64,000 nucleotides of DNA. Origin: Nematopogon swammerdamellus (lineage: Eukaryota > Arthropoda > Insecta > Lepidoptera > Adelidae). A program made the position numbers and the translations under genes. The notes beneath the pieces are model-generated. The model was given only the letters and a program-made list of their open reading frames with translations, searched no databases and was not told the DNA's origin. Below, in pieces: positions 48,483 through 64,000 of the stretch (the first letter of the stretch is position 1; each line of letters begins with the position of its first letter). The stretch covers positions 22,217,791-22,281,790 of the forward strand of contig OX336344.1 in NCBI GenBank assembly GCA_946902875.1. The letters run 5' to 3'.

Positions 48483-48551
48483 TCAGTGGTATAAGAGTGT
48501 AGGATTTTTAATTTTTCGATCTCGACCATGGGTTCGTGTCCCATTTGTAAA
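48483..48551 (+). other. tRNA-like module in the left arm of the foldback
   Basis: CAGTGGTATAAGAGTGTAGG is A-box-like, and ACCATGGGTTCGTGTCCCA contains a B-box-like GGTTCGTGTCC. Not a complete cloverleaf. Confidence 0.5.
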
Positions 48552-49754
48552 AATTTGTTTTGTTTTTTTGACGTGATAACGTCTTATAAATTGATGAACA
48601 CCGGCTGCACGCACGAAAAAGTGTCACGTTCCATCTGAGCCTGTGTGTGCAAGCGAGAGCGCGTAACAAGCGATAGAGAGGCACAATCGGCCCAAGCGGC
48701 AGTGTTGCCAAACGTACGGTAATTGCCGTATCGTACGGTAATCGAGGCTAGAAATCGACAAATGTACGGCGTACAGCAGCGATAGGGGTGCCGTACGAAA
48801 AAATACGGTAATTCTTATAGCTGTGTTTCTTTATGACGTTATCACGTAAAACTATCGTCCGTAAACCGACTTTACAGACAACCAATTTTTTTTTCTAGGC
48901 AATGTTAGGGTGTTAAAATTAGGTTATGTTTATTATTTTTATAACCTTTATTTAGAAAGCTTTATTTTGTTATGTTTTTGGTGGTAAAAAAAAATAACCA
49001 GATTTAATAGGGCAGGGCTATTCGTAGGTTTGCCAAACATAGATTATTAAATAAGAACTGGGAGTGTCCTATTTGATTTCCTGCGAATAGATCTACCAGG
49101 CGGGACAGTGCTATTCGCAGGTATGAGGTATTCCTATGTACGAACTGCACTATGCGAGTTGGTTTAAAAAAAAAACCAGGGTTAAATTACAGAAGATGTG
49201 TCGCGTAGCGAATGAATGATTGTTGAATGCGAAGAATGTTGAGGCGGCGCATGCCGTTTTTGTTACGTTTTGTTAAAAATTCCCATAGTGCAGTTTGCAT
49301 ACCTGCATGCAGGTTTACCTGCGAATAGACATGCCCGATCGGGCAGGGCTATTCGCAGGTAGAATAGCGAATAGACACTTCCGATTTAATAACCAGATTT
49401 ACGACGACGCATTCTTCTCTATTATATATTATCCCTAACCTAATGTTGAGGCGGCGCGGCGCATGCCGTTTTTGTTACGTTTGTATTTCCGAAAATAAAG
49501 CTTACTTAGGTGGTTATAAAAAAAAAATAACTATAACCTAATTTTAACACCCTAACATTGTTTAAAAAAAATTGGTTGTCTGTAAAGTCGGTTTACGGAC
49601 GATAGTTTTACGTGATAACGTCATAAAGTGGTAAGACTACGCATGTCGTTTTTGTTACGTTTGTATTTCCGAAAATAATTCTTAGGTGGTTATAAAAAAA
49701 ACTAAACACCCTAAAAAAATTTAAACAGAAAGAAAAAAAAACAAAAATAATTTT

Positions 49755-49822
49755 GAGGGATTCGAACCCATGGTCAAAAAATACAAATCCTACACTCTTA
49801 CCACTGAGCCACGAAATCACAT
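49755..49822 (-). other. tRNA-like module inside the foldback
   Basis: On the minus strand: GTGGCTCAGTGGTAAGAGTG (fits the A-box consensus), then ACCATGGGTTCGAATCCCTC with the exact B box GGTTCGAATCC, spaced about 35 bases apart. It is the best preserved of three such modules. Confidence 0.6.
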
Positions 49823-50024
49823 AAATGACCAAACGAATATCGGATTCCTTTGGTTCGCTTTCGGCTTGGGCCGATTGTGCCTCTCTATCGCTTGTTACGC
49901 GCTCTCGCTTGCACACACAGGCTCAGATGGAACGTGACATTTTGTTGTGCGTGCAGCCGGTGTTCATCAATTTATAAGACGTGACGTTGTCACGTCAAAA
50001 ATAAAACAAAACAAATTTTGACAA

Positions 50025-50100
50025 AAGGGACACGAACCCATGGTCGAGACTCGAGATCGAAAAAATAAATATCCTACACTCTTATACCACTGAGCCAACA
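50025..50100 (-). other. tRNA-like module in the right arm of the foldback
   Basis: On the minus strand: TTGGCTCAGTGGTATAAGAG and ACCATGGGTTCGTGTCCC. It is the inverted partner of 48483-48551. Confidence 0.5.
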
Positions 50101-50601: not shown

Positions 50602-50652
50602 TGGTGAGGGAGGAAGTGCCTGTGTGTCAGCTATGTTTCCGAAGCGTAGACG
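50602..50652 (+). CDS. Proposed exon 1 of the piggyBac-derived gene (start codon)
   Basis: Bounded on the left by a polypyrimidine tract and acceptor (CTCTTTGCGTGCAG, ending at 50601) and on the right by the donor GTAAAATA (50653). An ATG at 50633 gives MFPKRR and leaves two bases (CG) before the donor. Joined to the A at 51945 they make CGA (Arg), and the frame continues open into the next exon. The frame upstream of the ATG is also open to the acceptor, so the true start could be further 5'. A second frame reads VCQLCFRSVDG, reminiscent of a Cys-x2-Cys start, but would meet a stop at the end of exon 2. The exon is short, and the assignment rests on signals and phase only. Confidence 0.4.
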
Positions 50653-51944
50653 GTAAAATATTTCTCATATTTGGTGTTTTTGGAGTCGCAGTTTATTGTA
50701 AAATGCATAATATTTGAAGCCGGGTCTCCTGCGAATGTTTTTTTCGAAACATTACACCGAAACATTGGCGCTTGGCCATGCACATTTGTATGAAAACCAG
50801 AGAAATAATGTTTTTATTTCATGTTTTTTGTGTATTGTTTCGAAAAAACATGCGCAGGAGACGCGGCTTGATAGTGCGGTGTTTAGAAAATGTCTCAACA
50901 CGCCGAGGTGACGAAATTGGTTTCAATGCGGCGCCGGCGCCGGTGATCGTCGTCCCATACTTTCCACAGAGTATGTAGTATCAAAGAAATTTTATGTAGT
51001 TCAGTAGTTGTTGCATTATCTTTGGATTACACATATTTTTTAGAAAATCCGAATACAGATAAAAATGCCTATGACGCGGTCGGACGCGGGAGATCGCGTT
51101 TGACAGCTTGTGTTGTGACAGCATGTGACAGATTGTCAAAACGAATCGGTCGCCAGTGCATTATCGACCGTAGCCGGGTTGTACTGCGCTGTTCTAAGGT
51201 TCATTCTTGCTTGCATGAATGCTTTGTTATTTTATTCCACTACTGACTGCAAAAACATTCATATACTTACCTACAATGAAAGGATGAAAATTAGTATAGA
51301 TCTAATGGTGATAAAATAATATAGTTAATGTAAGTAAGAAAATAATTTCATATTTATTGGTTATATATGCAAAATCGCTTAAAAGGCGGACTTTTTGCCT
51401 AAGGCAATCAGTAGCAGGCCTAACATTTTGAAGAAAATTTGTATGTAACATTGTAACGTGTTTTGTTGCTTAGGTGCTTTTGTCAGCCTCGGTAGCTCAG
51501 TGGCGTGGTCGGTCAACTGTCGCAACGCTGAGCGCGGTTAGTACTTGGATGGGTGACCGCTGACAGTGGTTCGGATTCTGTAGCTGTCCCTTCCCTTCTT
51601 ACCTTACTAGGTGCTAGGGTTTATCCCGCCCGGGTTGATACCACCGCACTGAATAAAACGTCCGTCGAAATGGCTATGTAAATATTTTGTGTTTTCCATC
51701 CAGTTCAGAGTAGCTGACATAAAATAAAGGGAAGCGCTGACATGGCACCTAGTTCACCAAGTATATCCCTCCTCTCACTATTCCCTTCATAAAATATGTA
51801 GGTAATTCAATATTATTTATTGCTTACGTATGAAAAATAGTTACAATAGGAGGACTTAATACCTAAGGCAATCTCTAAAGTAGTATGTAAAATAAATAAT
51901 CACACCTCTTCAAATATTATAAGAAAAAAATTCATTTGTTTTAG
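50653..51944 (+). other. Proposed intron 1, containing a SINE A copy
   Basis: 1292 bases between a GTAAAA donor and TTTGTTTTAG acceptor. It includes a truncated family A SINE at 51482-51758. Upstream of the SINE no feature was recognised; 51380-51415 and 51845-51885 carry short scraps resembling LINE 3' ends. Confidence 0.4.
51482..51758 (+). mobile_element. SINE family A lacking its 3' end
   Basis: GTCAGCCTCGGTAGCTCAGT, CAACGCTGAGCGCGGTTAGT, ACTTGGATGGGTGACCGC, and body to CATGGCACCTAGTTCACC. It is the copy whose head is closest to 5S rRNA. Confidence 0.88.
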
Positions 51945-52112
51945 ACTATCGAAAGAAGATGACTCCCCATCTCCCGAGCGAGATGGGTCGCAACGCCGGG
52001 ACGCACAGACCGCGGCGAGTGCACCGGGGAACGCGCCCTCGCTGCAGTTGGCGACCGCATCGCCCACGTCGTCGCCGCCGTGCACGCCCCAACTCTCTCC
52101 TGTGACAAGACA
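51945..52112 (+). CDS. Proposed exon 2: Ser/Pro-rich disordered segment
   Basis: 168 bases between TTCATTTGTTTTAG and the donor GTATGTAC. One frame is fully open: one base, 55 codons, two bases. It reads LSKEDDSPSPERDGSQRRDA, a Ala/Gln/Leu stretch, then TSSPPCTPQLSPVTR, a low-complexity segment rich in Ser, Pro, Asp and Arg that would be disordered, with several SP/TP sites. The exon is GC-rich between AT-rich flanks, unlike the repeats around it, and matches nothing else in the window. Phase 2 at both sides fits exons 1 and 3. I do not recognise a family. Confidence 0.6.
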
Positions 52113-52182
52113 GTATGTACTTACTTATATTTTATATTTTTTAATTAGAAAAATTCAAATAGAAAATCATTGAAAAAAATAC

Positions 52183-52254
52183 ATCCCGACCAGGATTTGA
52201 ACCTGGGTCTCTGGCTTGAGCCGCCAACGCGATAACCAACTACACCACCGGGCC
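52183..52254 (-). tRNA. tRNA-like gene or pseudogene (anticodon position CTC)
   Basis: Seventy-two bases fold as a cloverleaf. The A box is TGGTGTAGTTGG and the T arm CCAGG-TTCAAAT-CCTGG is perfect, with B box GGTTCAAATCC. The anticodon stem is TTGGC/GCCAG, and the acceptor stem has one mismatch and two G-U pairs. The anticodon loop reads GGCTCAA, so the anticodon would be CTC (Glu), but position 33 is G instead of the near-universal U. No CCA is encoded, as expected in eukaryotes. The loop defect and weak acceptor stem favour a pseudogene or SINE head. Confidence 0.55.
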
Positions 52255-52445
52255 GTTACATATTATCTCCAAATTTTCGATCTATTGCACCTTCATGAAT
52301 GATGTCGCATAATTTTTGCGATTTTCGATTTGCATTTTTTTAATTAAAAATATATATAAAGCGAGTATGTGCTTAGTACTAACATAAACATAAAATATTA
52401 CTTATATTTTGTTTATTTATTTATTTATTGTAGAATTAACATATT

Positions 52446-52956
52446 TCGTCTTGGTAGAGTAAAACAGAGCCAAGCCACATTTCAGCGAAAACGTGTTTTT
52501 AATGCCAAAATACTCAGAATGAGACGGAGATTATAGTGGAAAAGAGAGCTAAGCGATTACGAGGTTAGAAGTACGTTATTTCAATAATGAATGATAACGG
52601 GATGTTAACTGAAATTCCATATACACACATTTTAAGATAAATGACTTTGGGCGTCATAGTATTAGTTTACTATCAATTTATTTTTCAATATTTCTGTGCT
52701 ACCGAACGAAGCCTAGCCACATAAATACTTTTGACCATCAACATTCACAGAAAATTGGTTCTTATTCTTTCTTAAATTGTAGTGCTAAACGGAGCCAAGT
52801 GTCATGAGTACTATTAATGACTAATAATTTGACACCGGGTGCGATAATACTGGCAACCAAATTGTATGGCAAATTTTCGAGACTTCAAATCTTTAATCGT
52901 CAATATCTCGAAATGTTGCATGTGTGGCTTGGCTCTGTTTATCTCTACCACGACGA
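52446..52956. mobile_element. TIR element of about 510 bp
   Basis: TCGTCTTGGTAGAG, AAACAGAGCCAAGCCACA on the left is mirrored by TGTGGCTTGGCTCTGTTT, CTCTACCACGACGA on the right. Internal copies of the same motif (AACGAAGCCTAGCCACA near 52705, AACGGAGCCAAGTGTCA near 52788) suggest subterminal repeats. No coding region. Confidence 0.78.
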
Positions 52957-53042
52957 TTTACAGTTTCCAACATTGACTTACCTATGTACTGGTTTCCAAC
53001 AATTAAGTAGGTAGTATAAACTTGTACAATATGTTCCGTCTG

Positions 53043-53370
53043 TACCGTGTGGGGCCGGTACTTAAAAAGAATAGCCCAACTGCATCTCTCCCCGTGCATG
53101 TCGTAAGAGGCGACTAAGGGATAATGATAAGATACTGCGCTAAAGGGCGACGGGTTAGCCACTTCTCACCTTGGTGCAGTCCTTCCACCTAGTCACGCAG
53201 CAGGGGGGTTCTTCGTGCCTTAATTGCTGCTTGATAGTTGTTTTGTCTGTATACTGTGCTAAACGTGGTGGTCGGTGTTGTGCTGTAATTTACCAGAGTC
53301 CTTATAGCACAACAGCGATTACTCTGCTTACCCTGATTGTCGGGATACAGCGTGTGTTATGTATGTATGT
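53043..53370 (+). mobile_element. SINE family B, full length
   Basis: ACCGTGTGGGGCCGGTACTT, AGCCCAACTGCATCTCTCCC, GTCACGCAGCAGGGGGGTTC, GGTGGTCGGTGTTGTGCTGT, GATTACTCTGCTTACCCTGA, and an ATGTATGTATGT tail. Confidence 0.92.
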
Positions 53371-53514
53371 TTGTAAACTTGTACAATATAAATACTATGC
53401 CAGATTCAAGCAATATTAATATGATATACCTAAAGTTTGCGTTTGAACTGCATTGTAAGAAAGAGAAATAATATTTTTGTTGAGAAAAAAGTTGAGTTCT
53501 TCAATATTAGGAAG

Positions 53515-53602
53515 GAAGGTGTGGAACTAAGCTTGCGATGGCTTCACCGAACATCTTCGGGCCCATCGGCAGTAGAGGAGGGTGTTAATCGAGGTCGGAA
53601 CT
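53515..53602 (-). other. Left half of a LINE-interrupted unknown segment
   Basis: Nearly identical to 59417-59504. Together with 56450-56475 it makes up one uninterrupted copy there. The minus-strand translation of the shared part reads DMFGEAIASLVPHL in the 59417 copy. I do not recognise the family. It may be a gene-derived or retroelement 5' fragment. Confidence 0.6.
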
Positions 53603-56449
53603 ATTCCAACGTCTATTCCAACGTTTTATACCCAAGAGCGGTGTCTGGTTGTATGGTCGTTCTGACGTCTCCGTCAAGAGACTTTGCCATGTTGAAGACT
53701 CCCGCTTCCCCGTGATCTGGGTCCGTGTGAATCTACCTCATGTGGTTAGAATTTATGCGGGCCTATATCGCTCACCTAACCTGGGTGTCAACGAATCGAC
53801 CTCATTCTTTGAGCACCTTAGCAGTGTGACGGACAAGTTGCTTGGTGAGCTTCCAACGGCCGAAATTGTGATGGTGGGCGACTTCAATGTCAAACACAAG
53901 GAATGGCTTGGGTCCCCCGTCACCGATCACTCCGGCCGGGAAGCTTACAACTTGGCCATAGCTCACGGATTGACACAGTTGGTTTCAGGTTATACGCGTA
54001 TACCTGACAATCCTGCGCATAAGCCCAGCTTGTTGGACCTTGTGCTGACTTCTGAACCTGCAGGATACAGAGTTAGTGTTAGGGCTCCTCTTGGGAGCTC
54101 TGATCACTGTCTCGTGTCCTGTAATGTGCCGACTGTGTACTACGCGCAATCACGCGAGCCTAGTACACGCACAGTCTGGCACTACAAGTCGGCGCAATGG
54201 GAGGAATTCCGATCTTTCCTTGGAACTTTCCCTTGGAGGGAGGTATGCTTTGCCTCAGCGGACCCATCAAAGTGCGCCGTGTCTATTGCCGAGCTGATAC
54301 AACAGGGTATGGAATATTTTGTTCCGTCTTCTGTTGTGCCGGTGGGCGGTAGACACAAGCCCTGGTTCAACCGCCAATGCCGCCTTGCGGTAGAGGCCAA
54401 GAATCAGGCCTTCAGGCAATGGCTGTGCGCCCGTACTGCTGAGGCAAGACGCACACTTAATGCCTCCTCCAGGTCTTGCAAGCGAACGCTCAATGTGGCC
54501 AAGTACAAGCACGACCATAAAATTGGCGAGAGGTTAGTCCGCTGTCCAACCGGCAGCCGAGCATTCTGGTCTCTCGCCAACTCTATTGGTCGAAACTTTT
54601 GTCGCTCTGCTACACCACCGCTGGAACGTCCGGATGGATCACTCGCTATCCTCGCGAAGGAGAAGGCGAACATTTTTGCTCGCCTTTTCGCGTCCAACTC
54701 AAATCTGGATGACCAGGGTGCAACCCCTCCCTCGATACCACACTGTGGGATTTCGATGTTGGAGCCAAGGATGCACCCTAGACAGGTCTACAAGTGCTTG
54801 AAGACGTTGGACACTTCGAAGAGTAGTGGTCCTGATGGCATTCCAGCCATAGTGCTCAAGATTTGTGCCCCTGAGTTGACACCAATCATCTCCCGCCTTT
54901 TCCGTCTCTCCTTCGCCCGTGGGATTGTACCCTCTTGCTGGAAAAGAGCCTCGGTCCAGCCGGTTCCAAAGAAGGGAGACTCCGCGAACCCCTCCAACTA
55001 TCGGCCCATTGCGATAACTTCACTATTATGTAAAGTTATGGAGCACCTTATTAACACCCAGCTCCTAACGTACTTAGAAGCAAATAAACTCCTGGATGAC
55101 AAGCAGTACGGATTCCGGAAAGCGCGGTCAACGGGAGATCTTCTAACGTACGTTACGCATATATGGGCCGAAAGATTGGACAATTTTGGGGAGTCGCTGG
55201 CAGTCGCCCTGGATATTTCCAAGGCTTTCGACCGCGTTTGGCACCGAGGCCTTCTAGGCAAGCTTCCGTCCTTCGGCATTCCACCCAAACTCTGCACCTG
55301 GATCGCCAGCTTTTTGGCGGGTCGTTCCATTTTCGTTACCATCGATGGCTCGAAATCGGACGACTTTCCAATTAACGCTGGTGTTCCGCAGGGCTCTGTT
55401 CTGTCGCCTACGCTTTTCTTAATCTTTATAAACGATCTACTGTCCTTGGGCATGATACACAGCTATGCAGACGACAGCACGGAGCACGAGGGCTATGTTA
55501 AGGACTGGAAGAGTAGAGATTCGCGGCACAGGGAGGCTCAACGTTCAGTTGTCGATAAGGTCGATAACGTTCTCGGAAAAGTAGCTATATGGGGCCAGGA
55601 GAACCTTGTCGCCTTCAACGTTAGCAAGACTCAGTGCTGCGCATTATCTGCTAAGGTCGATCCCTTTCCTTTCCAAGCAAGTTTCCAAGGCAGCGTCGTA
55701 CCTGTCTCGGAACACCTGGACCTCCTGGGCACCACTATTTCCAAAGACGTGGGTTTCCGGCAACTAATCGAGTCTAAGGCCAAAACTGCATCCAGAAAAT
55801 TGGGAATACTTTTCCGCAATCGGCGGTTCTTCTCACCGGCTCAACTATTCCTGTTGTACAAAACACAGATTAGGCCGGTGATGGAGTACTGCAGTCACAT
55901 CTGGGAGGGTAGTCCCCATTATCTGCTAGCATCCTTGGACTCGATACAGCGCCGAGCCATCCGTCTTGTTGGTGACCCGAAACTTACAGATGGTCTGGAG
56001 TCCCTGAGTCACAGACGATTTGTGGGTTCGCTTAGTCTGTTTTACAGATACTATCACGGACGCTGCTCTGCGGAACTAGCATCCCTTATTCCCTGCCACC
56101 CGTCCTATCTCCGCATGACTCGTCGCAGAGAGACTCGGCACCCTTTTGTTGTTGACATTGGGCTTCTGAGAACCCATCGGTTCTCTAAATCGTTTCTCTG
56201 TCGCACCGCTAGAGTGTGGAACTGTCTTCCGGCGAGTGTATTTCCTGAATCCTTTAACCTGGGTGTCTTCAAGCGTCGTATTAACGGGCTAGACAGCCTA
56301 GCAACAGTCCGCAAATCTGCTGGCATGGCACCTAACTGAGCGTGGTTTCGCGAGGAGAGGTGATTTTGGCTCTGTCGACTGCACCATTGGTCCCTCGGCA
56401 CAGTCACCCATGCTGGTTCACATAAAAAAAAAAAAAAAAAAAAAAAAAA
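53603..56449 (+). mobile_element. 5'-truncated LINE, jockey/CR1-like, with poly-A
   Basis: Boundaries are set by comparison with the uninterrupted sequence at 59417-59528. The host part ends GAGGTCGGAACT at 53602 and resumes CTAGCGAGTGGCCACTC at 56450. The element ends in CACATAAAAA and about 26 A. ACT at both junctions may be a minimal target duplication, or chance. Body length is about 2.85 kb. The 5' end lies inside the endonuclease coding region, so ORF1 and the promoter are absent. It sits in the sense orientation within proposed intron 2. Confidence 0.88.
53604..56339 (+). CDS. LINE ORF2: endonuclease and reverse transcriptase
   Basis: One open frame; counting from the TTG at 53649 it is 896 codons, and it is open upstream to the insertion edge. 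The apurinic-type endonuclease lacks its N-terminus but keeps YAGLYRSPN, MVGDFNVKHKEWLGS, LLDLVLTS and the catalytic LGSSDHCLVS. The reverse transcriptase follows with DGIPAIVLK, NYRPIAITS, ALDISKAFDRVWH, AGVPQGSVLSPTLFLIFIND and the SYADDS catalytic motif at 55461-55478 (S605-S610). The C-terminal part has WEGSPHYLLASLDSIQRRAI and SKSFLCRTARVWNCLPASVF. No stop or frameshift is visible, so insertion is probably recent. Family assignment within jockey/CR1-related LINEs is tentative. Confidence 0.92.
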   Translation, partial: FQRLFQRFIPKSGVWLYGRSDVSVKRLCHVEDSRFPVIWVRVNLPHVVRIYAGLYRSPNLGVNESTSFFEHLSSVTDKLLGELPTAEIVMVGDFNVKHKEWLGSPVTDHSGREAYNLAIAHGLTQLVSGYTRIPDNPAHKPSLLDLVLTSEPAGYRVSVRAPLGSSDHCLVSCNVPTVYYAQSREPSTRTVWHYKSAQWEEFRSFLGTFPWREVCFASADPSKCAVSIAELIQQGMEYFVPSSVVPVGGRHKPWFNRQCRLAVEAKNQAFRQWLCARTAEARRTLNASSRSCKRTLNVAKYKHDHKIGERLVRCPTGSRAFWSLANSIGRNFCRSATPPLERPDGSLAILAKEKANIFARLFASNSNLDDQGATPPSIPHCGISMLEPRMHPRQVYKCLKTLDTSKSSGPDGIPAIVLKICAPELTPIISRLFRLSFARGIVPSCWKRASVQPVPKKGDSANPSNYRPIAITSLLCKVMEHLINTQLLTYLEANKLLDDKQYGFRKARSTGDLLTYVTHIWAERLDNFGESLAVALDISKAFDRVWHRGLLGKLPSFGIPPKLCTWIASFLAGRSIFVTIDGSKSDDFPINAGVPQGSVLSPTLFLIFINDLLSLGMIHSYADDSTEHEGYVKDWKSRDSRHREAQRSVVDKVDNVLGKVAIWGQENLVAFNVSKTQCCALSAKVDPFPFQASFQGSVVPVSEHLDLLGTTISKDVGFRQLIESKAKTASRKLGILFRNRRFFSPAQLFLLYKTQIRPVMEYCSHIWEGSPHYLLASLDSIQRRAIRLVGDPKLTDGLESLSHRRFVGSLSLFYRYYHGRCSAELASLIPCHPSYLRMTRRRETRHPFVVDIGLLRTHRFSKSFLCRTARVWNCLPASVFPESFNLGVFKRRINGLDSLATVRKSAGMAPN

Positions 56450-56954
56450 CTAGCGAGTGGCCACTCTAAATTTCCCGCGCATGCTTCACGTTTCGGCTCG
56501 CATCAAGCCCTCGTCAGCTAGTCTGCGTTGACTAGGACGCGGGGAAACCACCAGTCCCGCTCTCGAACTCCCTCTCTCTACCTATCCATATTCTGTAGGA
56601 TGCTTCCAGTGACGTTTTCGAAGCTCTCTCCATATATGAGCTTAGCGTCGTCCATTGGCAGCCCTAGATTCTTGAAGGGACTGTAGAGCGACTTCGCTTC
56701 GCACAATGAGTTCTTTTCACCTGATGATTTGAAAATTGCACTAATATATATTTTTTTTGCATTGTGTTTAGCCTGTGGCTTTGTCCATAGCGGCTATATG
56801 AAAGGCTCTTTCACTTTCAGAAATCAGCAGGGTCTTTTGATATGTTGTTATAGTCATCTTTTTCTGAGTTCAAAAGTGCCGTGGGCCAACCTCTACTATG
56901 CTTAGGTCTAGCTAGTAGGGTAATGAGTGAAATTAATGAAATAATTTTTTTTAG
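56450..56954. other. Right continuation of the interrupted segment, then no feature
   Basis: 56450-56475 equals 59503-59528. From 56476 the sequence (CGCGCATGCTTCACGTTTCG, CGCGGGGAAACCACCAG, ATTCTGTAGGATGCTTCCAG) has no further match here. It could be more of the same unknown segment. The last bases form the acceptor of proposed exon 3. Confidence 0.45.
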
Positions 56955-57098
56955 CTTCAAAACCATTGCGGCCAGCTACCGTGTGTCCGCCACTCCCGAG
57001 GGTTCGATCCTGCCTCTGAAAGACGAAAGGCTCCTTTTCGGAGTAACTCCCGGGGACTCCGTCAGGCAAATCCAAGATGATACTCCAGGTTCATTTTT
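56955..57098 (+). CDS. Proposed exon 3 of the piggyBac-derived gene
   Basis: 144 bases between AATTTTTTTTAG and the strong donor GTAAGCAC. The structure is one base, 47 codons and two bases, fully open only in this frame. It encodes FKTIAASYRVSATPEGS, ILPLKDERLLFGVTPGDSVR, then QIQDDTPGSF. The leading C completes the CA left by exon 2 (CAC, His), and the final TT with the G at 59652 makes TTG (Leu). It is not repetitive in this window and is GC-richer than its flanks. I do not recognise the domain; it may be an N-terminal extension specific to this transposase lineage. Confidence 0.6.
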
Positions 57099-57127
57099 GT
57101 AAGCACTTTATTTATGTAAATCAATTT

Positions 57128-57520
57128 AGGTTTCCGTATCCCGTACGGAAGCCTATTACTAAGCCTACGCCGTCTGTCTGTCTGTCCGTTCGTCTGTCGT
57201 CTGTCCGAGGGTTGTATCTCTTGAACCGTAATAGGTAGCCTGTTGAAATTTTCACAGAATGTTTTATTATGGCCAATATAACAACAAATAATAAAAATAA
57301 GGAAAAGTAAAAAAATCACAGGGGTTCCCATAGAAGAAACCAAAAAGTGTATGAACTGCATTGATTATGAAGCATTTTAACTAATCATGACTTAACTAAT
57401 ATTAGTAGTAGTAGTTATAATAGCATTTCATAACACGCTATAGATGGCGTGAGTGGCGCTAACCATGACATGGCAATAAGGAACCCTCGGTGCGCGAGTT
57501 CGATTCGCACTTGGCCAGTT
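57128..57520 (+). mobile_element. Dispersed repeat family D, full length
   Basis: AGGTTTCCGTATCCCGTACG, AAGCCTACGCCGTCTGTCTG, GTATCTCTTGAACCGTAATA, GGGGTTCCCATAGAAGAAAC, CTATAGATGGCGTGAGTGGC, and GTTCGATTCGCACTTGGCCA. Confidence 0.82.
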
Positions 57521-57749
57521 TTTTTTTTTATAACTTCTTTAGGCAGAATGAAGTTTTATTCATCATTTTTCAAGTCTGATTAAAAAGTTATTCACTATGA
57601 AAAAAAAAACTACCATCCCTGTCTCTACATATTATAAGGTCTAACAGTTTGCAGTTTTTTTTCTATGTTATGCGACATACCTCCGCCACTGTTCTTAAAA
57701 CGAAACAAGTTATTATGTCGCTTTTATCTTGTCTCCCCAAGTATTGATT

Positions 57750-59031
57750 GTAGCTGGCACGACCGAAGGGAAGCACTGATATGGGATATGACTCCCTTCT
57801 TATATTACTAGGTGGTAGGGTTTAACCACTGTTGGTACTACCGCACTGAATGAAAGGTCGGTCGAAACGGCTATGTAAATAGTTTGTGTTTTCCGTCCAG
57901 TTCAGTGTAGCCGGCACGACCGAAGGGAAGCACTGACGTGGCACCAAGTTCACCCGGTGTTCAAATCAAATCAAATCAAAAAACGTTTATTGCACATAAA
58001 GTCGTACAGAAGGTAGTACTTAATGCCTATGGCATTTTCCGCCAGCCTACCCTTTTTACATATAAAAACCAGGGTAGGTGCAACAAAACATAGTCTTAGA
58101 TAATAGAAGAATAGAAAAACAAAGATTTATATTATATATACATACAATACATACATATAATAACCATATAGTAACCATAGTAAATCGTAAATATATATAA
58201 GCGTATACAAAAATAAAACTCAGACAATGATGAAAGACAGACAAACATGTTATGAATTTTCTCAGAAACCGATGAACTCCGAAACAGAAGGAGATGAGGT
58301 TTAGGGTTTGAGGAGATGGTCTTTCAAGAGCACTCTGAACGTGTGGATCGATGCACACTGTCGTAAACGAAGAGGAAGTTCGTTCCACATGCGTGCAGCG
58401 TGCACTGTGAAAGAGTCAGTGTAAAAGACTGAGGAGTGGGACGGGATAGCAAGAACAAGGGTGTCAGAGGATCTTAATGATACTCCGTGGGAGGAAAGCA
58501 TTTGGAAACGGTCGGAGAGGTATTTAGGAGCAGCAGGGTCATTCAGTGTGCAGTACAAGAGAGAGAGGACATGGGAATTTCTGCGACGACGAATGTCGAG
58601 CCACTGAAGGCTAGATCGGAACTCAGAAATGTGATCATATTTCCGCAGACCGAAAATGTAGCGGATGCACATGTTTAGTAGCCGGTCCAGCTTATTCAGC
58701 AGCTCTTCATTGACGTCGAGGTAACAGATATCCGCGTAGTCTAGAATAGGGAGGAGAAGAGATTGCACCAACATAGTCTTTGTGCTGATAGGTAGGAAAT
58801 TCTGCAGACGCTTGAGAGAATGCATGCTGGCGAACACTTTCCGGCTAACCTCACCGACTTGTACGTTCCATGATAACGTCTCATCAATGTATAGGCCAAG
58901 GTTTTTTACCACCTTAACCAGAGGGACCGCGACACCATTAAATAGAATATGTGGTAAAGATGTTTTGTCAAGTTATGGGCTGACATCACAGATGTTCTAG
59001 GTGATGTAGCCAACCGTGTCAGTTTTTTTAT
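57750..59031 (+). mobile_element. SINE family A' split by a LINE insertion
   Basis: The left part is 57750-57961 (GGATATGACTCCCTTCTTAT ... GTTCACCCGGTGTT) and the right part is 58972-59031 (GTTATGGGCTGACATCACAG ... CAACCGTGTCAGTTTTTTTA). Joining them at the shared GTT restores the family sequence, so the LINE piece between inserted after the SINE. Confidence 0.88.
57962..58971 (-). pseudogene. 5'-truncated LINE, RT C-terminus and 3' UTR, (TTTGA)n tail
   Basis: The minus-strand frame 58912-58301 encodes 203 residues of a LINE RT C-terminal region: VKNLGLYIDETLSWNVQVGE, LPILDYADICYLDVNEELLN, KLDRLLNMCIRYIFGLRKYD and SVFYTDSFTVHAARMWNELP. The 3' UTR contains TGCCATAGGCATTAAG and GCAATAAACG, then TTTGATTTGATTTGATTTGA. 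It belongs to the same group as 38197-38823. The frame is intact but the element lacks endonuclease and catalytic RT. Confidence 0.88.
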
Positions 59032-59199
59032 GAACAGATACATTCACAAAAAAAAAACATATAAAAAATATGTAGAATGCCTAACACATTTTATTACACA
59101 GAACATTAACCATAAAATACCAGTGTAGCCTACTGTGTCGTTTCATATAATATTTCTTGCTTGTGTTGGTTTTTTAGATAAAATATTTTTTTAGATACC

Positions 59200-59640
59200 T
59201 ACCGTGTGGGGCCGGAACTTAAAAAGAATAGCACCACTGCATCTCTCCTCGTGCATGTCGTAAAAGGCGACTAAGGGATTAGGACAAGATGCCGTGCTAC
59301 AGGTCGAGAGGCTAGCCACCTCTCACCTTGGAACTGTAATTTCAACGAGTCATGCAGCGGGTGGGTCTTGTACCTTACTTGCTGCTTGATAGTTATCTTG
59401 TCCGAATACTTTGCTAGAAGGTGTGGAACTAAGCTTGCGATGGCTTCACCGAACATATCCGGGTCCATCGGCATTAGAGGAGGGTGTTAATCGAGGTCGG
59501 GACTAGCGAGTGGCCACTCTAAATTTCCCATGGCGGTCGGTGTTGTGCCGTAATTTACGAGAGTACCTGTGTGAGAGTTGTGCAACTCCGATTACTCTGC
59601 TTACCCTGATTTTCGGGATGCAGAGTGTAGTATGTATGTA
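59200..59640 (+). mobile_element. SINE family B with a 113-bp foreign segment
   Basis: ACCGTGTGGGGCCGGAACTT through CTTGTCCGAATACTTTGCTA, then the unknown segment 59417-59529, then GGTCGGTGTTGTGCCGTAAT, GATTACTCTGCTTACCCTGA and the ATGTATGTA tail. The tail encodes the first two dozen residues of the open frame that begins at 59578. Confidence 0.88.
59417..59529 (-). other. Uninterrupted copy of the unknown segment (LINE empty-site paralogue)
   Basis: Equals 53515-53602 joined to 56450-56475, with a handful of substitutions. On the minus strand it contains ATG at 59474 followed by PMDPDMFGEAIASLVPHL. It sits inside a SINE B in place of about 8 bases of that SINE. Confidence 0.75.
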
Positions 59641-59651
59641 ATTATTTTTAG

Positions 59652-61722
59652 GAACCGCGTAGAAGAAATCCCGGAGGTCCACCCGTTGCCTGTGGAGTCG
59701 GAGACGAATGCCCTGCTGTCCGAACCGCAATGGCACCTAGATATCAAGAGCTGGATCCATAGGAACCATACGTCGAGTGCACCGGTGCGGGCGGCATCAC
59801 CCGTTGCCGGTCCAACCAGTGAATCGATGGTGTTGGTGGAACCATCTACATCACTACACGGTACACTGGATGAACCGGTGCGGGTCGAGTCACTTGTTGC
59901 CGGTGCTCTGGGACCGGAGCGGGCACGGGTCGAGGCGCGGGCTTCATCCGTTGCTGAAAAATCTGCGCCGTCATTACGTGCAAATTCTTCGGCCATTGCT
60001 CCGGAGTATTCGGAACACTGGAGCGAAGCTGAATCCGAATCAGACGATGAGGAGGTTGATGAGGCACCTCATAGGTTCGCTCCCGCGGCAGAAGCTCGGG
60101 AGGAGGCCGCAGAAATTGCTGAGGAAGAAAATATTGCATTGGCAGAGACCGATCGCATTATGGATGTGGTACACGAAGGTCTGCCGGGCATAAATGTTGA
60201 TTTCGAGTGGTCACAGGATTTCAGCATGTTCAGAGGGGTGAGGGAAATCTTTACTGCGGGTCCTTCTAAACACGCTGTATTCTACGATACACCGTATGAT
60301 GCTTTGGTCGCAATATGGGACGAAAGCATCATGAGGCATATCGCAACAGAAACCAATAGATATGCCCTCCAGACCATCGATGGCATGGTTGAAACGGGAG
60401 ATTTGAAGTTGAATGCCAGAGTGAACAAGTGGGTTGAAACTGAAATAAATGAAATGTATGTCCTTTTCGGAATATTCATAATTATGGGGTACAGTCCCCG
60501 ATTGAGGTTGGCCGATTATTGGTCGACCGAGCGCTATTTAAACATGCCGGGCTTCAGGGAGACTATGCCCTATAACAGATACATCCTCCTGAATAGGTTC
60601 ATGCATTTTGTAAATAATGAGGACCCTGAGTCGCACAACGAACAAAAATTGGCCAAATTACAGCCCATCATCGATCATTGTAACGCTAAGTTCGAAAGTA
60701 TCTACGAACTTGGCGAACATATATCGATCAATGAGTCGCTTACCTTATGTAAGGAACGGCTGAGCTGGTCCCAATGCATAAGGTCGGAAGCGGCACGATT
60801 TGGTATTAAGTCGTTCGAGCTGTGCGACTCAAAGACCGGCTATTTATGGAGGTTCATGATATACACAGGTAAGAACTCAGCTCAGTCTTACAGTGTGCCT
60901 ATCAAAGAGCTCGCAGGAAAGAGTATAGGAATTTTGCTAAAGCTCCTGAATGGGCTGGAGGGGAAGGGTTATTATCTGACCATGGATAATTATTATAATA
61001 GCCCTCTCTTGGCGAGATTCTTGAAGTCCCGCGGGTTTGACTGCGTCGGGATACTGCGTGTGAACCGCAAACGTGTTCCCGACGCAATAAAGATCAAAGA
61101 GTCTGCCCCGTCAGGTACTATCGTGGCTCGCCATTCAGGGGATGTATCTGTATTCGCGCGGAAGGACTCCAAAGTGGTGAGTAGCATCTCTACCTTCCAT
61201 GACGCTCGAACATTTTTTAGCCAGAAATCTGGCAAGGCGCTTACCAAGCCAGTAGTGATAAGGGACTACAAGTATATGGGTGGTGCTGATCACAAAGAAC
61301 AAAAACTCGCCACGTACTTGTTGGAGCGTAAGCGCTGTATCAAATGGTACATTAAAATGTTCAAGCGGTTGCTCAACGTTAGCGTCCACAATGCCTACGT
61401 TCTCCATCGTCGCACGCTGGAACGTAGAAACGAGACGCTGCTGAGCCACAGAGACTTCCGCGAGGCGTTGGCTGAAGCTTTGGTGAAACGCCATTCTACC
61501 TCCGTCTCCAAAGTTAATCGGCCACGCTCCTCGGAAACACGTTTGCAGGCGAACCCCGTGCACGTTCCAGACAAGTCGTCGCGTAGGCGTTGTGCGAGGT
61601 GCTCAGCGTTGGGCATTTACAAAAGGTGCAAAATCTCATGCACCACATGCGATGTGGGCTTGTGTTTGGGCGCTTGTTGGAAGGAATACCACTCGGAGTC
61701 CGACCTAAGTGTAAGGAAGTAA
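59652..61722 (+). CDS. PiggyBac-family transposase-derived protein, terminal exon
   Basis: An open frame from the ATG at 59578 (714 codons), but the first 25 codons lie in a SINE tail. The acceptor AATTATTTTTAG at 59640-59651 suggests the true start is upstream; the exon would begin G-AAC with NRVEEIPEVHPLPVESE. Residues 26-200 (numbered from 59578) are low-complexity and acidic (SEAESESDDEEVDEAP). Residues 217-610 match the piggyBac (DDE_Tnp_1_7) core: MFRGVREIFTAGPSK, ADYWSTERYLNMPGF, MPYNRYILLNRFMHF, YYLTMDNYYNSPLLARFL, YMGGADHKEQ. The catalytic triad Asp-Asp-Asp appears as N385, D470, D571, and the fourth acidic position is E574. The C-terminus has a zinc-finger-like CRD (C672, C675, C684, C688, C691, C696, C700, H705). 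Length is normal for the family. No TTAA-flanked piggyBac ends were found beside it. Loss of the first Asp in an otherwise intact frame suggests DNA binding without transposition. A recently inactivated transposon remains possible. Confidence 0.88.
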
Positions 61723-63073: not shown

Positions 63074-64000
63074 ATGTCTCGTTTGTGTTTTGCATGCGTG
63101 AACGTAAGGGTAATTGTTACTTCCTTTCTCTGACCTGGCATGCGTCATTGAACTGGACGGAAAACATGAACTAATAATCCGTATTGGTGATTGTGGATTG
63201 AATGGATGGAGAGTGAAACGGATGAGTATGAATGAAATTTTTATTATTATGGAAGAGGCGACAGGGGTGTGACAGGACTGTGGACGTGGCGATATTGTGT
63301 CTCTGCCAAACAATTTAGGTTAGAATTTTTAGGCCTCCGTAGCCATGTATAGGAAATAAAATACCTACTAGTGCCTACACTACCTAATATAATACCTAAT
63401 AGTACAATACCTAATAGTGACACTTCGTCCGGGTCATTTCCCATCCTATAATATGGTTGAGGGAGGTGATGGCTGGCCCTGTGGTGCTCGTGAACGGGTG
63501 CAGTTTGTGGAGACTGACCTGCTTCATGTGGCAGTGTGGTGGGTATATAATTTCATACAATTTCAAAGTAAAAATGTTTTCACTTTGTCATGAATTGCTG
63601 CATCTGTCATAAATCAGCACATGCGTGTCTAGGCAGTGGCAAACATTTTTGTAAAGTAGACTAAGTGTACATTGAAAAAATTTCCAGTGAAGTTTCTTGT
63701 AAGTTGTTCTTCGCTGTGATAATCGAACTGGCGGAATGTTACAATGTAAATATGACAAATCTGAGCGCAGTGTATTGCCAATAGATGCTAAATAAACAGT
63801 AAACAACCCTTACCGACACGCGCTTGTCAATTTTTTTTTTTTTGGTATTATTTTAATTTTATTGTTATTAGAATATATTTTTATCTATATTTGAATTTGG
63901 TTACATTGGTATTCATTATATTGTATTGTATTCAAACGATGAAGCGAGGGGAAACACAATTTGTTATTAGAACTTTTTGTGTCCTTATTTGAATGTGGTT
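63074..64000. other. No gene recognised; LINE scrap at 63245-63313
   Basis: 63245-63313 (GGAAGAGGCGACAGGGGTGT, GTGTCTCTGCC) resembles the end of the RTE-like fragment at 2600-3095. A short CTACCTAATATAATACCTAATAG repeat lies at 63374-63415. The rest is AT-rich with no supported feature up to the window edge. Confidence 0.4.

Follow-up and report, generated by a model that had tools for sequence, protein, structure and literature searches.

The 64,000-nucleotide window analysed here (Nematopogon swammerdamellus, contig OX336344.1, positions 22,217,791 to 22,281,790) carries a predicted four-exon gene at 50633-61722, on the forward strand, whose product ends in a piggyBac transposase domain and a cysteine-rich domain. 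An initial annotation, made from the window sequence, had proposed this gene and suggested that it might be a domesticated host gene. Its exon coordinates proved exact, and the coding exons are as follows.

50633..50652 (+): exon 1, coding part; ATG at 50633, MFPKRR plus the CG of the next codon, donor gtaaaa
51945..52112 (+): exon 2; 168 nucleotides, phase 2/2, Ser/Pro-rich
56955..57098 (+): exon 3; 144 nucleotides, phase 2/2, with the motif pair TPxGS...TPxxSV
59652..61722 (+): exon 4; acidic linker, piggyBac DDE transposase domain, C-terminal cysteine-rich domain, stop

The junctions read CG+A, CA+C and TT+G, all in phase 2; the lengths of exons 2 and 3 are multiples of three, and the spliced frame of 800 codons is open. 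All introns lie upstream of the transposase domain. The predicted structure is confirmed by homology to a paralogue on contig C28 (L038, C28:10016500-10024500), which has four exons in the same order on one strand (20, 186 and 144 nucleotides before exon 4), phase-2 junctions throughout and a complete open frame. Both proteins start with MFPKRRRLSK. The window protein is a member of the piggyBac superfamily, as annotated: exon 4 matches Pfam DDE_Tnp_1_7 (PF13843) with an E value of 5e-76 and, among PDB sequences, piggyBat at 1e-35 and piggyBac at 3e-21. A Foldseek search with the AlphaFold model of exon 4 returned 9c0f and 6x67 as top matches, and the fold matches piggyBat and piggyBac structures. 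Because confidence in this model is low (mean predicted local distance difference test score, pLDDT, of 67.8; 228 of 689 residues under 50; weak loops near the catalytic positions), active-site geometry was not read from it.

Six paralogues and their catalytic residues

At 60% identity or more, exon 4 has at least six places in its own genome: the window gene on C12, C21:19737460, C28:10021721, C29:5380976, C21:18276622 and C16:21188500. The genome match lists given here are lower bounds, with 65 of 231 candidates scored for this query. The six copies, named below by contig (C21a and C21b for the two on C21), lie on five contigs, and every one of their exon-4 frames is stop-free. Among the candidates scored, the closest copies are 68-70% identical to the window protein, near-identical recent copies are absent, and the next long match below the six stands at 44% identity. 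In a tree with other lepidopteran proteins and nine other piggyBac frames of the genome, the six form one clade (support 1.000), inside which the nodes are partly weak. The catalytic positions and the cysteine-rich domain of the window gene are located as follows.

60730..60732 (+): D268 (Trichoplusia ni numbering); AAT = Asn, residue 471
60985..60987 (+): D346; Asp kept, residue 556
61288..61290 (+): D447; Asp kept, residue 657
61297..61299 (+): D450; GAA = Glu, residue 660
61582..61692 (+): cysteine-rich domain, presumably zinc-binding; CxxC..CxxC..CxxxC..H

With D268N and D450E, the catalytic DDD(D) set of the window gene is incomplete. Catalytic aspartates are altered in four of the six copies, and differently in each: C28 has D268N/D447H/D450Y, C21a has D346E, and C21b has D447E/D450V. 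In the tree, C28 pairs with C29 (bootstrap 97), apart from the window gene, so two independent origins of D268N are possible. The C-terminal cysteines and histidine are kept in all six, and the Pfam zf-Tnp_2 match to this domain is weak (E 0.034, under the family cut-off). Of 123 sites nearly invariant in 19 reference proteins, 15 are broken in the window gene and 8-20 in each of its five paralogues, compared with none or one in 12 of the references and 4-23 in the other seven; the references were chosen from 33 proteins returned by protein searches, and defining the sites on these 19 favours them. Exact-invariant sites, of which the window gene breaks 3 of 18, are too few to say much.

The substitution patterns support, without proving, purifying selection on six copies whose frames are intact. 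Pairwise synonymous divergence (dS) among the copies is 0.35-1.5, and the ratio of nonsynonymous to synonymous rates (dN/dS, omega) is 0.22-0.54 for exon 4, 0.13-0.26 for the core and 0.39-1.04 for the N-terminal part of exon 4. Terminal-branch omega was estimated with three transition/transversion settings and two regions for the window gene, C28, C21a and C29. For the three of these with damaged catalytic sets (the window gene, C28 and C21a) it was 0.27-0.59, with P values for neutrality of 7e-12 to 9e-3. In exon 4 of the same three, from LAETD on, about 4-13 nonsense changes each would be expected if these branches had been neutral over their full length, and none was seen.

Domestication is favoured because there are six intact, diverged paralogues without detected terminal inverted repeats (TIRs), under apparent purifying selection, with catalytic residues altered in four of the six. 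Our best explanation, which we consider probable, is that the locus is one of six host-retained paralogues making up a lineage-specific, partly non-catalytic family of chromatin- or DNA-binding proteins derived from an intron-bearing lepidopteran piggyBac. The suggestion of a domesticated host gene therefore survives, on these grounds and not on the presence of introns, an argument that fails in this genome. The pattern that the initial annotation had named as refuting it was not seen, since exon 3 is present in relatives and no TTAA-flanked copies of the subfamily were found.

Transposon ends, mobile families and retention

The initial annotation had reasoned that a typical piggyBac transposon has a single unbroken frame. 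This is contradicted by a mobile-looking family of this genome (L011, L012, L014 and L015; 2.55 kilobases, copies 99.2-99.96% identical, DDD present). In all four copies, an ATG and 11 codons are followed by a donor, a phase-2 intron of 212-216 nucleotides and then the transposase frame; unspliced, the frame stops after 12 codons. CCCATTA TIRs with TTAA are present in L014, where both ends are exact, and the other three copies have one exact and one degenerate end. This family resembles the window gene in its phase-2 intron near the N-terminus but differs from it in its TIRs with TTAA, its near-identical copies and its DDD. Since a mobile-looking family is also spliced, introns come with piggyBac lineages in this genome, and multi-exon structure on its own does not establish domestication.

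In the fetched flanks, neither the window gene nor any of its paralogues showed a TIR pair flanked by TTAA; C21b gave only pairs resembling short interspersed nuclear elements (SINEs). The best TTAA-flanked inverted pair around the window locus was likewise rejected as a SINE and not a TIR. Two mobile families, with copies 99.2-99.96% identical, served as a control. Of eight members put through the automatic TIR test, four (L005, L006, L010 and L014) gave both ends, and when nine members were scanned for the motif, eight had CCCATTA-type ends at either side with at most two mismatches. A genome search with PF13843 gave at least 117 matches, from the scoring of 116 of 346 candidates. Such matches form clusters, each of four to nine, at C16:3.06-3.28 Mb, C16:21.07-21.19 Mb, C18:3.33-3.44 Mb and C24:2.50-3.04 Mb; they are mostly open, with varying scores, a distribution unusual for a transposon.

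A number of observations weigh against retention by the host. The automatic test misses some ends, so the absence of TIRs in old copies is modest evidence. The 3' homology between copies ends near AACAATTTA(A), with TTAA there in C28, and this boundary could be a decayed element end. Within limited upstream flanks, exon 3 was found in two of the six copies, an exon-1 match with donor in three and a clear exon 2 in two; the counts for exons 1 and 2 come from the examined flanks, and further genomic copies of these exons may exist. The catalytic triad is intact, with DDD(D) kept, in C29 and C16, and the cysteine-rich domain has an omega of 0.09-0.77 over 43-46 codons, which indicates no strong constraint overall. 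On the terminal branch of C29, omega was 0.39-0.73 and neutrality was rejected weakly (P 0.004-0.14). More generally, omega below 1 partly reflects earlier constraint, because part of the terminal branches may predate catalytic loss. Degenerate piggyBac proteins exist in other species too, for example P0011 of Ostrinia furnacalis, which has D268N. Finally, a search over 5.8 billion proteins, in which the 7995 candidates sharing most words were scored, gave no orthologue whose core identity exceeds about 57% (52% when the whole aligned part is counted), which leaves long cross-species conservation unsupported.

An alternative is an old, undomesticated copy of an intron-bearing piggyBac, from a subfamily that was recently mobile, with its ends lost and its catalytic residues drifting away without any host function. 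To this account, which we give a modest chance of being correct, the spliced transposase of the mobile-looking family, the triad kept in two copies and the lack of a high-identity orthologue in other species among the scored candidates all lend support, as do stop-bearing pieces at 52-53% identity in the genome (C24:2636854 and C23:18901963). However, it sits poorly with the lack of a TIR/TTAA pair and of near-identical copies among the candidates scored, with dN/dS below 1, and with the missing nonsense changes on the damaged branches of the window gene, C28 and C21a.

Support for the upstream exons

Taken alone, the splice signals and their matching phases do not exceed chance expectation. 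We counted candidate phase-2/2 internal exons by simple criteria in the real 9 kilobases upstream and in 60 Markov simulations. The real stretch held three, and the simulations averaged 1.9 and reached at most 8, with none in 15 of the 60, so that the earlier estimate of about 1 in 27 for three compatible phases carries little force. Exon 2 meets these criteria; exon 3 fails them. Because such candidates arise in simulated sequence, the signals alone were dropped as evidence. By coding potential, exon 2 ranks among the best 1.2% of open windows, yet another frame scores equally high, and exon 3 is unremarkable, with 18% of windows scoring the same or higher.

Homology decides the matter. The exon 1 region (50630-50680) has 88% DNA identity to C28, with the same ATG and donor, and C21b has exon 1 without the ATG. 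Exon 2 shares 48% amino acid identity with its 186-nucleotide counterpart in C28 (E 2e-7), and exon 3 shares 57% with its counterpart of 144 nucleotides. When the window gene is compared with C28, the main part of exon 4 has a ratio of nonsynonymous to synonymous differences per site (pN/pS) of 0.38; exon 3 has 0.61 and exon 2 has 1.06. By eye, the exon-4 acceptor is at the equivalent place in all six paralogues.

A segment similar to exon 3 also stands near the N-terminus of piggyBac proteins of Colias, Papilio, Tuta and Aricia. We built a profile from ten N-termini of piggyBac proteins of other Lepidoptera, the exon-3 part being covered by four of them. Against it, the real N-terminus scored 17.0 bits, a score reached by none of 500 exon-3 shuffles (maximum 10.8). 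Shuffling exon 2 had no effect of this kind (258 of 500 shuffles reached the real score); exon 2 showed no homology to the N-termini of the other species and therefore draws its support from C28 only. In pairwise comparisons with 1000 shuffles each, the exon-3 match was clear for P0008 and P0024 (3 and 5 shuffles reached the score) and not clear for P0001 and P0029 (109 and 92). With an earlier, four-sequence profile, the exon-3 frame ranked first of 1688 window frames, but at an E value of 0.33, and we give this ranking little weight because the motif had already been seen when the profile region was chosen. A search with residues 1-150 of the window protein returned none of 614 candidates at E <= 10.

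Two loci elsewhere in the genome contain segments like exon 3. L042 (C16:21126001-21131000, minus strand) is a tandem array of eight exon-3-like units, the last six 518-561 base pairs apart, within a cluster of piggyBac frames. Seven of the eight are open, with an acceptor and with a donor resembling that of the window gene (TT|gtaagca), and the first is truncated; single units score weakly in the genome search (E 0.04-2.3). The array looks like a set of duplicated, possibly alternative exons. At L044 (C23:18901801-18903300), a degraded relative, an open exon-3-like segment is followed closely by part of an exon-4-like frame.

The gene model could still be partly wrong: transcription of exon 4 might begin at a start of its own or in different upstream exons, with exons 1-3 being remnants that are not spliced to it in this copy. 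The gaps between exons are long and include an inserted element, exon 3 was not found near four of the six paralogues, and the pN/pS of exon 2 is about 1. However, all junctions are reproduced in C28 within one open frame, and the exon-3 donor and first intronic bases recur in the C16 array, and we consider such an error quite improbable.

The remaining features bear on the introns and flanks of the gene.

53589..56336 (+): open frame of a long interspersed nuclear element (LINE), with endonuclease and reverse transcriptase, in intron 2; Pfam RVT_1 E = 3e-30
63115..63320 (+): 3' segment, either 3' untranslated region or old element end, common to C28, C21a and partly C29

A LINE does lie in the introns, as the initial annotation had reported. 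Intron 2 of C28 has only 223 nucleotides, in contrast to the LINE-bearing intron 2 of the window gene. The description of the exon segments as non-repetitive and GC-richer than their surroundings also holds: no second copy of exons 1-3 lies within the window, and GC content is 0.50, 0.66, 0.54 and 0.50 in exons 1-4 against 0.39, 0.46 and 0.41 in introns 1-3 (0.37 in intron 2 ahead of the LINE frame). Intron 3 holds a 223-amino-acid open frame at 58304-58972 (-) without a Pfam match, which by eye looks to us like the C-terminal portion of a LINE reverse transcriptase. A large nested inverted repeat at 48500-50076, shortly before the start of the gene, has arms of 119 nucleotides (97%) and 65 nucleotides (100% complementary) and is perhaps a non-autonomous element.

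Known systems and a possible role

Could the window protein still work as a transposase, moving relatives in trans or relying on a different acidic residue? P0011 and the window gene (60730-60756), which belong to separate subfamilies, both have Asn at the first catalytic position and an acidic residue eight positions on, but C28, also D268N, is without that residue, D450 is changed as well, and in T. ni piggyBac D268N is reported to abolish or nearly abolish excision (PMC2533014), which makes continued activity scarcely credible.

Among other species, the closest comparison is with lepidopteran proteins annotated as "piggyBac transposable element-derived protein 4-like" and similar (P0001 from Colias, P0024 from Tuta, P0029 from Aricia). 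They share with the window protein its domain order and a TPxGS segment resembling exon 3, and their exon-4 part begins in a similar way; unlike it, they keep the DDD catalytic motifs in the sequences seen, and they are at best 52-57% identical. P0001 (Colias croceus), from a related clade with 13 sequences in its cluster, is predicted to be a fusion of a SAP domain and a piggyBac transposase, which may be genuine or may come from an error in the gene model. A scan of viral contigs with exon 4 found no relative.

Several described piggyBac-derived systems share features with the window family. Human PGBD3 (CSB-PGBD3) has a single D-to-N change in the triad, as does the window protein, and is described as keeping DNA binding (PMC3902484, PMC6143343). 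PGBD3, however, is fused to a host gene. We rejected a fusion of this type for the window gene, in which exons 1-3 match no Pfam domain at E <= 1 and no known host domain is attached, and whose upstream exon 3 also occurs in other piggyBac proteins. PGBD5 of chordates likewise contains introns and does not conserve the catalytic DDD(D) motif (PMC3902484), although its activity is disputed, with work finding it active cited in PMC6143343. It is a single-copy gene with introns inside the transposase domain, kept for more than 500 million years, whereas the window family is lineage-restricted and has N-terminal introns only. Paramecium has one catalytic and several non-catalytic piggyBac proteins, PiggyMac and the PiggyMac-like proteins (PMC6143343). 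As in the window family, intact and broken triads are mixed among paralogues with a cysteine-rich domain (PMC8086355); in the window family, two members and not one keep the triad, and complex formation and programmed DNA elimination are part of the Paramecium system.

By analogy with PGBD3 and the Paramecium set, the window gene most likely encodes a catalytically dead piggyBac protein that would still fold and bind. Such a protein would no longer cut DNA. It may enter the nucleus via its basic N-terminus (PKRRR), and its cysteine-rich domain and RNase H fold may bind chromatin or DNA resembling piggyBac ends. We infer DNA binding with some caution, because in Paramecium the cysteine-rich PiggyMac domain makes weak contact with histone H3 and none with DNA (PMC8086355). 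The window protein could then have a regulatory role, or assist the triad-keeping paralogues C29 and C16 as their non-catalytic partner, with the fast-evolving Ser/Pro-rich N-terminus as a putative adaptable interaction part. A fuller PiggyMac-like arrangement, in which C29 and C16 would cleave and the window gene, C28, C21a and C21b would supply architectural or targeting subunits, jointly on host or transposon DNA, is improbable.

We found no published description of this family in literature listings and the openings of abstracts, which is not proof of absence. In the sources cited here, the domesticated piggyBac genes described come from vertebrates, other chordates and ciliates (PMC6143343, PMC8086355, PMC3902484). 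Given spliced transposases in mobile-looking piggyBacs of the same genome, multi-exon structure should not count as proof of domestication. A six-member lepidopteran family, with an exon structure common to at least two members, would add a case in which catalytic changes have occurred repeatedly inside one family while its frames stayed open.

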